DNA from: Comamonas sp. GB3 AK4-5
GTDB taxonomy: Bacteria > Pseudomonadota > Gammaproteobacteria > Burkholderiales > Burkholderiaceae_C
Assembly: GCF_041320665.1 (NCBI RefSeq)
Contig: NZ_CP166730.1
Coordinates: forward strand, 3,720,001 to 3,784,000
Length of the DNA stretch: 64,000 bases
Direction of reading: 5' to 3'
Shown: piece by piece, positions 3,720-63,377 of the stretch
Position numbering within the stretch: the stretch's first letter is position 1
Layout: every line of letters begins with the position of its first letter
Program-made: the position numbers and the translations under genes
Notes under the pieces: model-generated
Databases searched by the model: none
What the model saw: the letters and a program-made list of their open reading frames with translations, nothing else
What the model was told of the DNA's origin: nothing

Positions 3720-4238
3720 ATGGCTGAACCTACGCCCTCCACCCCCTCGTCTTCCCCAACCCCGCAGCGCTCGGGCCGCTCCTGGCTGTGGCGCGGCCTG
3801 GCAGCCGGAGTGACCGCGCTGATGGCAGCCTGCGGCTCCGTCCCCCATCTGGGCGGCAAGCTGGGTTCGGGAGGAGGCGGCCCGTCCGCCGGCTCCAGCG
3901 CCGCATCGCGCGAATACCGTCAGGATGCCGCCCGCCATATCTATGCGCGCAACCAGCACCGTATCTACAAGGGCCAGCTGCCCCCCATGCTCTACGCCGT
4001 GGGCGTGCTGGAAGTGGAACTGGACCGCAGCGGCAATGTGCGTCGCCTGCGCTGGCTGCGCGCCCCCAGCCATGCACCCGAAGTGGTGGCCGACATCGAG
4101 CGCACCGTGCGTGCGGCCTCGCCCTTCCCTGCCCCCTCCCGCATGAGCGGCAAGCTGACCTATACCGATACCTGGCTGTGGGACCAGTCGGGACGCTTTC
4201 AGCTCGATACCCTCACCGAAGGCCAGCGCGGGGAGTAG
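3720..4238 (+). CDS. Putative lipoprotein with TonB C-terminal-like domain
   Basis: About 172 aa from the ATG at 3720. A positively charged Pro/Ser-rich N-terminus precedes a hydrophobic stretch ending in ALMAAC, a plausible lipobox with Cys near residue 37. After a Gly/Ser linker, residues about 70-165 resemble the TonB C-terminal fold, including an E-V-E-L-D-R-S-G-N-V pattern and two later strands. TonB-like domains of this small size usually act in envelope contacts rather than as full energy transducers. No operon partner is obvious; xdhC is divergent. Longer in-frame starts exist, but the chosen start gives the cleanest signal sequence. Confidence 0.55.
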   Translation: MAEPTPSTPSSSPTPQRSGRSWLWRGLAAGVTALMAACGSVPHLGGKLGSGGGGPSAGSSAASREYRQDAARHIYARNQHRIYKGQLPPMLYAVGVLEVELDRSGNVRRLRWLRAPSHAPEVVADIERTVRAASPFPAPSRMSGKLTYTDTWLWDQSGRFQLDTLTEGQRGE

Positions 4239-11970: not shown

Positions 11971-13770
<1,800 letters not shown>

Positions 13771-60075: not shown

Positions 60076-60399
60076 TCAGCGGTATTGCTTGCGCAGGTGG
60101 TTCAGCAAGTCAGCGCGAAGGTGTGGCGGGGTATTCAGCAGGGCTTGGCGCATCTGCTCGCGGGCGGCAGGGCTGTCGCCCCAGTGGTCACAGGCTCGCT
60201 TGGCGGTCTGCAGCAGTTGCTGGGTGATGCGGCTGGACTCCAGCACCAGCCGGATCAGCTCTGCCTTGTGCTTTCTCACCAGGGTGCGCTGGCGGTCTGT
60301 CAGGGTGTCGGCGGGGGCCGTCAGGGTCTTGCCATCTGGCGTGCATTCCAGGTCAATGCCCTGGGCCTGCAGCTCCTCAAGGATTGCGCGGGCGGTCAT
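60076..60399 (-). CDS. TubC N-terminal docking domain-like phage protein
   Basis: 107 aa. Residues 1-52 match the TubC_N docking domain (ILEELQAQGIDLECTPDGKT and LTDRQRTLVRKHKAELIRLV). In phages and plasmids such domains occur in replication-associated proteins. The rest is helical. It overlaps the stop of the ATPase gene upstream by one base. Confidence 0.7.
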   Translation of the reverse strand: MTARAILEELQAQGIDLECTPDGKTLTAPADTLTDRQRTLVRKHKAELIRLVLESSRITQQLLQTAKRACDHWGDSPAAREQMRQALLNTPPHLRADLLNHLRKQYR

Positions 60400-61697
60400 C
60401 AGAACGCCTCCTTGGGGCCGGGCTTGATCGGCACGACGTTGGAGGCCTGGTTCTGGCCGTTTTCAGATTCCGCCAAGGTTCCAAGATTCCAAGATTCCGC
60501 GTTTTGAACATTGGAGCCTTGGGAATCTTGGGTGGAATCTTGGGAATCTTGAGCCCCAGGAGGGAGCCGCCAGTACCAACCATCACGCGGGCCGTCCTCG
60601 CCCTTTTTGCGAATAACGTTTAGCTTCTTGGATGCGGACCAGACCTGCTTCTTGCTGAAACCAGCTCGCAGAAGGCCACGCTGCGCGGTGTCCACCGGCG
60701 TCCAGCAATCGGCAGTCAGAGCCTCACGGAGCATGTCGCAAATGTCCTGTGCGTTGTCCTCTTCGTCGCCTTCTGGATCGGTCAGCAGGTCACGGGCATT
60801 CCCTTGCACGGCCTCGCCCCAGGCAATGCGCGATGCCTGAATGCCTGAGAGCGGCTCGCACTGCTCCAAGTGGTAGTTGAAGCCGCCCTCATCCGGGCCG
60901 ATGTTGGACTTGCTTCGTGCCAGGATGCGGGCGTCCTGGCCGTCTTCCAGGCTCTTGACCTTGGCGGCCACCAGCACCACGCGGGCCACGGCGGTAAACG
61001 CCACACTGCCCACCACGCGCTGGGCTGGGTCCGTGCCCTGACCACCCTTGGCAAAGTGGGTGATGCCCAGCACCGCGCAATCGCAGGCCGTGGCCAGGTT
61101 GACCAGGGGTTGCAGCGCCCGCCGCACCTCGGTGTTTTTGTGGCTGTCACCCGTGACGGCCGACACCACGGGGTCGATCACCAGCAGGCGGATGCCGCCA
61201 ATGTGCTGGATGGCCTGCAGCAGCCCAGGCAGATCACGGGATGGGTCAAAGGGTTGCACCTCTCCATCCTCTGTGCGCGCTCCCTCGATGAAGTAACAGC
61301 GGCTGCGCTCAGCGCCAGCAGCAAGCAGCCGGGGCAGCAGCGTGTCGCCCGGGTCGTCCTCACCGCTCCAGATCAGGATGTTGCCTGCCTCGCACTGGCT
61401 GCCATCAGGCCAGGCCCCGCCGATAGTGATGGTTGCGCCCATGGTCAGCGCCAGAGTGGTTTTGCCCTGGCCAGGGGCGCCGGCCAGGATGTGCAGCTTG
61501 CCCAGCGCCAGCCAATCCTTCCACAGCCACCGGATGGGCTCGGGGTTCAGGTCAGTCCCGCAGGTCAGCAGCACCTGCGTGCCCTGGGCCTGGGGTGGCG
61601 GTGCCTCGGGGAAGTCATCCAGCTGCGGGAAGGTTGGAGGGTTGCGGGCAATGTCCGCATCCACTGCAGCAAAGGCCGCGTCTGTTCGTGCATTCAT
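60399..61697 (-). CDS. RepA-like AAA ATPase/helicase (AAA_25)
   Basis: 432 aa. Walker A GAPGQGKTT at residues 73-81, a conserved ILIWSGEDDPGDTLLPRL, Walker B RLLVIDPVVSAV and sensor ITHFAKGG with QRVVGSVAFTAVARVVL place it with RepA/RSF1010-type hexameric replicative helicases found in phages and plasmids. A C-terminal winged-helix-like segment (CWTPVDTAQRGLLRAGFSKK) follows. Residues about 379-408 are a Ser/Gln/Asp-rich stretch encoded by an array of 8-bp repeats, as in phage replication genes that contain their own origin. It overlaps the CHC2 gene by ATGA. Confidence 0.85.
   Translation of the reverse strand: MNARTDAAFAAVDADIARNPPTFPQLDDFPEAPPPQAQGTQVLLTCGTDLNPEPIRWLWKDWLALGKLHILAGAPGQGKTTLALTMGATITIGGAWPDGSQCEAGNILIWSGEDDPGDTLLPRLLAAGAERSRCYFIEGARTEDGEVQPFDPSRDLPGLLQAIQHIGGIRLLVIDPVVSAVTGDSHKNTEVRRALQPLVNLATACDCAVLGITHFAKGGQGTDPAQRVVGSVAFTAVARVVLVAAKVKSLEDGQDARILARSKSNIGPDEGGFNYHLEQCEPLSGIQASRIAWGEAVQGNARDLLTDPEGDEEDNAQDICDMLREALTADCWTPVDTAQRGLLRAGFSKKQVWSASKKLNVIRKKGEDGPRDGWYWRLPPGAQDSQDSTQDSQGSNVQNAESWNLGTLAESENGQNQASNVVPIKPGPKEAF
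60473..60552. repeat. Iteron-like repeat cluster inside repA
   Basis: Three tandem units of CCAAGATT (first has G for A) at 60473-60498, a spacer GCGTTTTGAACATTGGAGC, then three inverse units GGAATCTTGG at 60522, 60534 and 60543. The 51 bp from 60481 to 60531 reappear inverted at 63327-63377 with two changes in the spacer. Confidence 0.85.
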
Positions 61698-62149
61698 TGG
61701 TACACCTCCGCGATGCGCAGCACTCGCCCAGCGGCTTGCATCAGGCGTGTGCGGTCGTTGTTGGAAAGGGTCACGCCCTGGGCCACATTGCCCGCAGCTA
61801 TGGCGATCAAGTTCACCTCGGTCATCAGGACGTCCAGGGCCTGGCGCGGGGTGAATGGGGCCGGGTTGGTGGGGGCAGGCCTGCCGTCATCCACCCAGGC
61901 GCCCAGCTCCTGGGCCGCCTCGATGAATTCCAGGCCGTGGAGGGCCATGTGGTAGGCCAGCACGTCCCCGCCCTTGGCATTGCAGGCCATGCACACCCAT
62001 GCACCGGAGTGCAGGTTGATGCGCATGCTGTCGCTGCCACGGTGGAAGGTGCAGGCCGTGGTGACCCACTTCTTGCCTCGGCCCAGCTTCAAACCCTGGG
62101 CCTCGAAATAGCTCTGCGGGTCGGGCAGGCGGTCGCGTTCAAAGCCCAT
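61694..62149 (-). CDS. CHC2 zinc-finger (primase-type) protein
   Basis: 151 aa. A DnaG/CHC2-like zinc finger is seen in TTACTFHRGSDSMRINLHSG and WVCMACNAKGGDVLAYHMAL, with Cys-x2-His and Cys-x2-Cys ligands. No TOPRIM domain is present, so it is a separate primase-type zinc-binding protein, likely a partner of the RepA-like helicase it overlaps by four bases. Confidence 0.85.
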   Translation of the reverse strand: MGFERDRLPDPQSYFEAQGLKLGRGKKWVTTACTFHRGSDSMRINLHSGAWVCMACNAKGGDVLAYHMALHGLEFIEAAQELGAWVDDGRPAPTNPAPFTPRQALDVLMTEVNLIAIAAGNVAQGVTLSNNDRTRLMQAAGRVLRIAEVYQ

Positions 62150-62150
62150 G

Positions 62151-62507
62151 TCAGCAGCCCCCCTGGTTCCAGCGCATCAGGTAGCCAATGGCATTGGCAC
62201 GCAGCTCAGCCGCCTTCTCTGGCGTGCGGTGCGGGGAGTTCGCCAAGTCCAGACACAAGACGGCTTCGGAGATTTCAATCCAGGCACGGATAAACAGGTG
62301 CTCCATGTCATCCATGGCAGAGACCAGCGCCAGCGCGTCAGGGGCATTGAACTGCTGGTCCCAGGCGCGCACCTCGTTGACCAGGCGCCTGGCTTCGCGG
62401 TTGGTGACCGGATCGCCTTCCCAGCTTTTGCCCACCGGTGTGGTGACCAAGGGCGCAAACTTTGGGCAAGGCGCCGCCTGCGCGGGTGTAGCCATAACTT
62501 CGTTCAT
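62151..62507 (-). CDS. Hypothetical early phage protein
   Basis: 118 aa from the ATG at 62507. Helical and acidic (MDDMEHLFIRAWIEISEAVL) with a C-terminal RANAIGYLMRWNQGG. It overlaps the gene upstream by ATGA and ends one base before the CHC2 gene, so it belongs to the replication operon. No family recognised. Confidence 0.65.
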   Translation of the reverse strand: MNEVMATPAQAAPCPKFAPLVTTPVGKSWEGDPVTNREARRLVNEVRAWDQQFNAPDALALVSAMDDMEHLFIRAWIEISEAVLCLDLANSPHRTPEKAAELRANAIGYLMRWNQGGC

Positions 62508-62815
62508 GCTGCACCGCCTTCCTTGATGGCCTGCAGCATCTCCCCATGCGAGCAGTCCGCCAGGTTCGCCATGTCCGCAGCAAGGTATGCACCCATCCGT
62601 GCCAAGGTGCGAATGCGCACGGTGCCACCGTCGTCGTCTGCAATGGTCAGAAAGAGCTTTTCCATCCAGTCGAGTGCGTCCGCAGCAGTGCGGGTTGGTG
62701 CAATCACATCCTCGGGCCACTTCACGCCAAAGACGGCACTGCAATCCATGTGAGCCAGTTTTTGGCAAGGCTCCGCCATCACTGCCACTTGGGCAGCGTT
62801 TTTCTTGGTCGTCAT
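62504..62815 (-). CDS. Hypothetical early phage protein
   Basis: 103 aa. An N-terminal Lys-rich start is followed by a mid-region with DALDWMEKLFLTIADDDGG and Met-rich helices. Four-base overlap with the next gene. No family recognised. Confidence 0.65.
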   Translation of the reverse strand: MTTKKNAAQVAVMAEPCQKLAHMDCSAVFGVKWPEDVIAPTRTAADALDWMEKLFLTIADDDGGTVRIRTLARMGAYLAADMANLADCSHGEMLQAIKEGGAA

Positions 62816-62818
62816 GGT

Positions 62819-63022
62819 TTAGCCCTCCAGGCTCAGGTCGAGCCCACGCAGGGCGGACAGGGCTTGCACGGCTTTGCGGCGTGCAGCGGCGATATTGGCC
62901 TGGGGCTGGCTCAGGTAGTGCAGCGCCATAGCCATGGCGTTATGCGCCTGGGCGTGCAGCTGGATAGGGTCAGGGGTGCCCGTGGTGGGCGATGCGGTGC
63001 GGATGGCTGTGGTGCTGGTCAT
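62819..63022 (-). CDS. Small protein translated from the C4-like leader
   Basis: 67 aa from the ATG at 63022 with AAGGA upstream. Helical C-terminal half (AHNAMAMALHYLSQPQANIA). It is the first gene after the C4-like RNA region and would be the direct target of antisense control, as with the leader-encoded small ORFs of phages P1 and P4. The open frame continues upstream through the RNA region, but that part does not look like protein. Confidence 0.6.
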   Translation of the reverse strand: MTSTTAIRTASPTTGTPDPIQLHAQAHNAMAMALHYLSQPQANIAAARRKAVQALSALRGLDLSLEG

Positions 63023-63059
63023 GGACAGGATTCCTTCGAGAGAATCAAGGGGGCCACCG

Positions 63060-63115
63060 TTTGCGTTCTTACGCGCATCGGGTGGAGTGTGGTGGTTAAG
63101 AACACGCTCGAAGAC
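63060..63115 (-). promoter_or_regulatory. Leader target of the C4-like RNA
   Basis: The forward strand holds GTTCTTACGCGCATCGGG at 63065 and TTAAGAACACGCTCGAAG at 63096. In the transcript the second block is complementary to the block at 63241-63260 (9 + 7 bp), and the two blocks also pair with each other (GTTCTTA/TAAGAAC). It lies 40-90 bases before the start codon at 63022. Confidence 0.6.
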
Positions 63116-63184
63116 GTGCGGCAGTCCTTGCGGATATGCCCCACCACACCCCGTAACCATGGCGGATGGTGCATGCGAGCGCAC

Positions 63185-63270
63185 CAGCCTCAAAAAAATG
63201 GGCGTGACAAAACCCCGCTTGACGGTGGGGGTTGCAACCTCTTCGAGTGTGGTGTTCTTACGCACCGGGC
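63185..63270 (-). ncRNA. C4-like antisense RNA (phage immunity type)
   Basis: Read on the minus strand, the block TAAGAACACCACACTCGAAG (63241-63260) is followed by a stem AACCCCCACCGTCAAGCGGGGTT and a conserved GTCACGCCCATTTTTTTGA segment. The first block is complementary to the leader further downstream in the same transcript. This is the architecture of C4 antisense RNAs of phages P1, P7 and P4, which are processed from their own leader and block expression of the downstream operon. Sequence and position fit; expression and processing are not shown. Confidence 0.6.
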
Positions 63271-63326
63271 CTCTCGGCTTGCGGTCAATGTAGCACGACT
63301 GGCAGCTCGATGTGAAGGAGTCAGGT

Positions 63327-63377
63327 CCAAGATTCCCAATGCTCCAACGTTCAAAACGCGGAATCTTGGAATCTTGG
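63327..63377. repeat. Iteron-like repeat cluster upstream of the C4-like region
   Basis: One CCAAGATTCC at 63327 and two overlapping GGAATCTTGG at 63360 and 63368 around the spacer AACGTTCAAAACGC. It is the inverted counterpart of the cluster at 60481-60531 inside repA, 2.8 kb away. Confidence 0.85.

Follow-up and report, generated by a model that had tools for sequence, protein, structure and literature searches.

A candidate phage replication origin inside the gene of a RecA-fold helicase, probably read by the helicase's own winged helix

Introduction

Why should a prophage carry two clusters of the same short inverted repeat, one inside a helicase gene and the other between genes further upstream? 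The question is raised by a 64,000-nucleotide stretch of the Comamonas sp. GB3 AK4-5 genome (contig NZ_CP166730.1, positions 3,720,001 to 3,784,000; hereafter the window), in which array 1 lies in the 3' part of a repA-like gene on the minus strand and array 2 lies close to a promoter-like site (Table 1). An original prediction, made from the DNA letters, took the two clusters for the halves of a two-part replication origin. Our computational analysis points elsewhere: genes related to repA carry such arrays at a fixed place and with a fixed geometry, the repeat unit covaries with the recognition helix of RepA, and the two are exchanged as a unit. On this sequence evidence we consider it probable that array 1 is made up of iterons bound by the winged helix at the C-terminus of RepA and serves as the replication origin of the phage.

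Two facing repeat clusters in the window

Seven exact copies of CCAAGATT occur in the 64 kb, compared to a mean of 1.29 in 100 shuffles, none of which (0/100) reached seven. Four copies lie at 60481-60543 and three at 63327-63377, confirming the two inverted clusters of the original prediction. Its count of three forward and three inverse units in cluster 1 holds only when one mismatch is allowed, which adds CCAAGGTT at 60473-60480 and an inverse copy at 60545-60552 to two exact copies each way, while the one forward and two inverse units reported for cluster 2 are all exact. An inverted copy of the 51-bp core at 60481-60531, identical to it at 49 of 51 positions, occupies 63327-63377; changes had been placed in the spacer alone, and one of the two is there, the other falling in a degenerate unit. 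Each cluster is built of two arrays that face each other across a 14-bp spacer (63346-63359 in cluster 2). The repeat, described at first as an 8-bp unit, is real, but relatives conserve about 9 bp of it, the window version being CAAGATTCC.

The near-exact 51-bp copy has sharp ends, with unrelated flanks in which extension by 5 bp per side gives nine mismatches in ten bases, and extra copies occur in two related loci (L027 and L040), as might be expected of a mobile or dispersed repeat that sits in repA by chance. However, in the 5.05-Mb genome of the host strain the doubled-unit 18-mer CCAAGATTCCAAGATTCC, with up to two mismatches, has three matches, all within the two clusters, and its exact form was found in one of 200 genomes of the family, namely its own. 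The position of the array is also fixed behind the winged-helix codons, and its unit covaries with the protein (both described below), so that a chance insertion seems to us the least credible account of array 1.

The protein encoded around array 1 has a single Pfam match, PF13481 (AAA_25; E 3.1e-38). Foldseek matches of its predicted model include RecA (5jrj, E 2.0e-6) and RepA of RSF1010 (1nlf, E 7.8e-6, template modelling score by target 0.56). A sequence-profile search against the PDB found no chain, and structures of P4 and of Staphylococcus aureus pathogenicity islands (SaPIs) are not among the fold matches listed for the RepA models, which excludes nothing. Array 1 lies within repA directly 3' of the codons for the winged helix and encodes residues 387-432, a tail predicted to be disordered (predicted local distance difference test score, pLDDT, <50), in agreement with the placement of cluster 1 in the 3' part of the gene. 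Its three reverse units are translated in three different frames.

Most relatives of RepA keep the array at the same place

Two scans yielded 80 loci encoding RepA relatives, 19 from virus contigs and the other 61 from species genomes, cited here by L numbers. By record title they are mostly Burkholderiales, with alpha- and gammaproteobacterial members and one from Desulfuromonadaceae. Near copies (L005, L006, L013, L022, L025, L035 and L037) were removed for the non-redundant set, L077 and L078 stood outside all tail analyses, and L061 came without downstream sequence. In most of the tails printed, two facing sets of ~9-bp units follow immediately after the aromatic motif that closes the winged helix; L071 has one arm only, L079 has no array in its printed tail, and the printed piece of L080 is too short to count for or against. 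The units vary among elements (CAAGATTCC, GAAGATTCC, CAACTTGCT, CAACTTGTC, CAACTTGGC, GAAGATGCC, CAAGGGTGC, GAAGGTGGC and others), but despite this variation the forward and reverse arms of any one element match each other. Because the repA stop codon falls within the array in L019, L027 and L075 and ahead of it in L195, the array need not be translated. It is the array, and not the residues of the tail, that relatives conserve, as foreseen by the suggestion that DNA rather than protein is under selection here.

When 130-bp windows were ranked by inverted 7-mers in 71 non-redundant loci, including the window, the 3' end of repA was strictly the place richest in inverted repeats in 48. With a stricter unit pattern, a facing pair of units was found in 42 of 72 loci versus 4 of 1192 control windows, and the inner spacer of these 42 pairs measured 14 bp in 23 cases, 13 bp in seven, 12 bp in three, 22-23 bp (one unit longer) in six and 6 or 9 bp in three. 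Blind matching of the arms was uninformative about the spacer, as tandem units let the centre slide, and the unit-pair search was used in its place.

Facing arms of this kind can pair, and their complementarity is kept, which would also suit a hairpin in the repA mRNA acting as an attenuator or controlling stability or translation. Such an RNA element is very improbable, however: direct units are repeated within arms of unequal length, the length of the spacer is nearly fixed, array 2 precedes the promoter-like site, and a hairpin leaves unexplained why the unit varies with a residue of the recognition helix.

L010 has two dyads of one unit, and L034 (7050-7250) has two complete arrays in tandem behind one helicase, with units GAAGGGAGC and then GAAGATTCC, which looks like the arrival of a cassette next to an earlier one.

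The repeat unit covaries with the recognition helix

Read by eye, the type of recognition helix goes with the variable half of the unit: KKQ[VI]W with ..TTCC, KKQ[VI]R with ..GCC, W[AS][TS] with ..GCT and ERT with ..TGC, while WRT goes mostly with ..GTC or ..GGC, an exception being L062 (dropped by the pattern) with ..GCC. Natural examples are KKQVW in the window, KKQIR in L007, WAT in L011 and WRT in L015. Unit classes were then assigned from trinucleotide counts without reference to the protein and compared with residue 350 (A/S versus R/H); the two agreed in all 33 scorable loci (16 + 17; Fisher 8.6e-10). L062 and L066 (mis-hit by the helix pattern), L074 (not matched by it) and L020 (a short sequence, used for the tree only) were left out of the helix and unit analyses.

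The same residue emerged from a ranking that did not depend on its choice. Mutual information with the unit was calculated for 335 variable, well-filled alignment columns over 56 labelled loci of 68, and the top columns were, in order, residues 350, 357, 353, 363, 347, 351 and 349, which comprise the recognition helix, one residue of the preceding turn and one in the following strand. Columns of the ATPase domain had a mean excess information of 0.03 and a maximum of 0.23. Between close relatives, helix and unit change together: the ATPase of the window is 89% identical to that of L007, but helix and unit both differ, and comparable differences separate L017 from L026 and L023 from L011. A quick tree was built from the ATPase domain, with 67 rows and good support for 11 of its 63 inner branches; it implies 11 changes of helix class and as many of unit class. 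Taken together, the covariation strongly suggests that the likely binder of array 1 is RepA itself, through its own winged helix.

A further scan gave 23 loci, four of them new (L185, L194, L195 and L196), and all four have arrays. The helix of L194 is complete, belongs to a known class (EKQLR) and is accompanied by the expected GCC unit; two of the other loci have a cut helix, and L195 has a new one. In L195 a non-coding GAAGGGAGCG array follows the repA stop after position 4044, and its helix type, KEHQL, is absent from the other loci read.

Wider occurrence and weight of the evidence

More distant elements were also inspected, the 86 matched phage records all being <60% identical to the RepA of the window. 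In Microbacterium phage Fizzles and its relatives L096-L099, facing TCACAAGTG-like sets were seen by eye behind a winged-helix-like stretch of a primase/helicase. In plasmid pCG2 (6758 bp), an array about 180 bp behind the AAA ATPase gene ranks highest for inverted repeats within the 4.5 kb that were read, which gives some support to an origin function; plasmids of Subdoligranulum and Campylobacter (L092 and L094) have facing repeats by eye, unranked by the scan. Plasmid L093 has a truncated AAA gene beside a transposase and no array, and an inverted repeat after the stop in Streptomyces plasmid L090 was set aside, as it looks like a terminator.

Several observations weigh against an origin read by RepA. 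The repA 3' end is not the strict inverted-repeat maximum in 23 of 71 loci, close and distant relatives among them, and the unit pattern finds no pair in 30 of 72, including the window, where it takes TCCC into a 10-mer. Eight of 41 loci could not be scored for residue 350 against the unit, 12 of 68 had no unit label in the blind ranking, and the helix and unit rules were both composed after the sequences had been seen. Supported branches of the tree provide four independent pairs, all concordant (p 0.125), too few for significance. Part of the excess information of the C-terminal columns is linkage, the array being adjacent, although linkage alone does not explain why one face of the helix ranks first. 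GC skew does not flip at array 1 or array 2, and the 14-bp spacer is no long AT-rich region. Finally, no array was found in the printed piece of the Microbacterium-type locus L101, or behind the gene in Mycobacterium phages Larva and Rando14 and a Brevundimonas phage.

With these points counted, we still favour RepA-read iterons and an origin at array 1 and, with more reserve, lean towards a wider proposal: that a widespread class of RecA-fold (AAA_25) helicases of phages and plasmids reads its own origin by a C-terminal winged helix, following a simple amino-acid-to-base code in which residue 350 and its helix face correspond to the variable half of the 9-bp unit, with the origin held in the codons of a disordered tail as a swappable cassette that changes replication type.

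Array 2 and the early promoter region

A promoter-like site follows array 2 at a distance of 10 bp and opens a structured leader common to the window, L008, L024, L027 and L038. CTACA at the second hexamer is invariant in these five aligned loci, and 20 of 60 predicted pairs of the leader have changed on both sides and are kept in at least one of the five sequences. An array upstream of the leader is present in two of the five (the window and L027) and was not found there in L008, L024 and L038.

Phage P4 has its ori and crr apart, and its alpha protein, a primase fused to another helicase class, is an initiator-helicase that reads iterons through a winged helix at sites in two places. A two-part origin of this type, with both arrays required and bridged by the initiator, would fit the agreement of the two arrays in unit and geometry, and in the window and L027 array 2 occupies the same place as a reversed copy. 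Unlike in P4, the two-site arrangement is not conserved. A strong second array (at least 19 hits of own-unit 8-mers in 120 bp) was present in 3 of 78 loci, copies included and with loci reaching 6 kb or often less to either side, the next highest count being six hits. In 29 whole records or genomes, two class patterns, which missed even the first array in L004, L005, L011 and L044, detected an array apart from the first in those of L027 and L040 only; isolated hits with one mismatch elsewhere were as in a reversed control. The two-part origin is thus not supported as a general feature, and we consider it improbable for the window too.

In each phage, array 2 is nearer to its own array 1, of which it is a reversed copy (49/51 positions in the window, 67/73 in L027), than the two arrays 2 are to each other (39/49 with gaps). 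Within a phage the two arrays thus remain similar, whether through copying, through conversion or because a single reader selects both. As cluster 2 is a near copy of the element's own cluster 1 in the window and L027, it may be a transposed copy, a caveat that the original prediction itself raised. The extra array of L040 lies 5.8 kb downstream of the first in ambiguous sense (53/62 in the same sense, 46/55 reversed). It occupies 12820-12925, by eye near the 3' end of an apparent tRNA gene, a possible attachment site.

The location of array 2 ahead of the early genes raises another alternative, in which RepA would bind both arrays as operator or titration sites for control of expression or copy number and replication would start elsewhere. 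In the IncU plasmid RA3, as described in the available passages, oriV lies at the 3' end of repB and a further upstream repeat titrates the initiator (PMC9455977). This precedent cuts both ways, as in RA3 and in the phage-inducible chromosomal islands (PICIs) the origin is placed either at the 3' end of the initiator gene or immediately after it. The conserved array 1 is likewise at a gene end, far from the promoter-like site, and most loci have array 1 alone, which makes control without an origin unlikely. RA3 is likened here by its description; its repeats are different, and facing sets are not described in the passages available. For array 2 itself, regulation of the early promoter or RepA titration is at least as likely as a role in a two-part origin, and array 2 is probably an extra copy serving RepA autoregulation or titration, or an auxiliary origin.

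Comparison with known origins and a proposed mechanism

Statements on published systems concern the passages available of each paper. SaPI Rep, apparently acting as two hexamers, uses its C-terminal domain to recognise iterons that directly follow its gene, and Cch2 of the staphylococcal cassette chromosome mec (SCCmec) is similar (PMC7581432); in PICIs two iteron sets flank an AT-rich region (PMC7581432, PMC6092414). The iterons described here also stand directly behind the last domain of the helicase, and the covariation suggests that this domain reads them as in SaPIs and PICIs. The two facing sets leave a gap of 12-14 bp in 33 of 42 paired loci, with no long AT-rich stretch; the helicase has a RecA fold (AAA_25), and the array usually lies within the coding sequence. 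SaPI Rep is of the AAA+ class, and by helicase class the RepA system is not part of the SaPI family.

Lambdoid phages have iterons inside the O gene (PMC7466680). Array 1 is similarly within the gene of the proposed initiator, which made lambda an apt comparison in the original prediction. Lambda O is an initiator separate from the helicase, whereas the array-carrying gene here encodes a helicase whose C-terminal domain is the proposed reader. In the phage-inducible chromosomal island-like elements (PLEs) of Vibrio cholerae, the origin varies in step with the portion of RepA that binds DNA, and the two have been swapped as a module (PMC8263062); that system differs from the one in the window by a RepA_N initiator, an intergenic origin and three ~30-bp iterons. 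In a study of primases of mobile elements, Kazlauskas et al. suggested for PrimPol and helicase proteins that origins are recognised by the C-terminal winged helix, which in some of them follows a RepA-type helicase (PMC5862659); the suggestion names no sites and no helix-to-base rule in the passages available. For the RecA-fold helicase class, a 2022 paper states that no function has been described (PMC8965321). A literature search, with most subscription journals outside its coverage, found no account of an AAA_25 origin inside its own gene. By analogy, the best reading is that array 1 is a type-specific origin and that the RepA system would work like SaPI/PICI Rep, lambda O and PLE RepA, on the RecA-fold helicase class.

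We infer that RepA binding, ring loading, melting and initiation take place at array 1. RepA subunits would bind the ~9-bp units in two facing sets, and binding in this orientation would place the rings of the helicase head to head across the short spacer; loading of the rings would open the duplex, and the neighbouring CHC2 primase-like protein, together with host factors, would begin synthesis. Because the sites lie directly behind the codons of the reader domain, reader and site could be inherited and exchanged as one cassette, and the origin type could switch among close relatives. The role proposed for the family is that of a self-recognising initiator helicase, which would allow the origins of many prophages and plasmids to be located by their sequence, and the natural variants form a ready series on the joint evolution of a winged helix and its site. 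The same series bears on why phages diversify their origins, whether through incompatibility between prophages or, as with the PLEs, to escape nucleases directed at the origin.

Prophage neighbourhood and other features

Table 1. Coordinates, strand and basis of the features discussed, numbered from the first letter of the window
Feature	Position	Strand	Basis
Array 1, facing sets of ~9-bp units within the repA 3' end, proposed origin	60473..60552		
Array 1, 14-bp spacer	60499..60512		Read by eye; geometry in relatives
repA-like gene, encoding an AAA_25 helicase of RecA fold with winged helix and disordered tail at the C-terminus	60399..61697	-	Pfam, model, fold matches
Predicted winged-helix codons, residues 313-377	60567..60761	-	H-H-H-strand-strand, pLDDT mostly near 90; also modelled alone
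Recognition helix codons, residues 349-358	60624..60653	-	Residue 350 first in covariation with unit
Array 2, intergenic inverted copy of array 1 core	63327..63377		49/51 identical
Promoter-like site: TTCACA, 18, TACATT, TG before second hexamer	63287..63316	-	One consensus match, 0.5 expected
Structured leader, C4-like	63050..63293	-	Paired changes in 5 sequences
CHC2 zinc-ribbon protein, primase-like	61694..62149	-	Pfam PF01807, E 5.3e-7, above cut-off

The end of the window is the early region of a prophage on the minus strand, in the order AlpA-like gene, small gene, array 2, leader, small genes, CHC2 zinc-ribbon gene, repA and TubC_N-type gene. Genes for terminase and head proteins, named from their translations, come further on. 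The C4-like region of the original prediction is present as a structured leader beside cluster 2; it resembles C4 antisense RNA, but an Rfam search with it gave no C4 match. Its match to sRNA-Xcc1 fell below threshold (33.9 of 53 bits), and on array 1 the Rfam matches to mir-4650 and MIR477 were below the gathering score and were taken as chance hairpin matches. The leader boxes, GTGCGTAAGAACACC / GTGTTCTTAAC / GCGTAAGAACGC in the window, change in concert among phages.

Behind repA, at 60076-60399 on the minus strand, lies a gene for a TubC_N docking-domain protein. A profile seeded on this protein found such a gene behind repA in 36 of 67 loci checked, and Pfam confirmed the domain, at E values up to 0.05, in 7 of 10 submitted proteins. 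A docking motif at the C-terminus of RepA (E.[LIVF]-stop or E[VI]EL-stop) was considered and rejected, as its GAG GTn codons are also the Shine-Dalgarno sequence (GGAGGT) of the next gene; across the 67 loci, motif and TubC_N-type gene were both present in 31 and both absent in 27, with the motif only in 4 and the gene only in 5. Past the end of the window, L084 carries on the minus strand a gene of 395 amino acids (1726-2913, corresponding to window positions 64726-65913) that reads as a P4-type tyrosine integrase, and the end of the prophage is therefore probably near.

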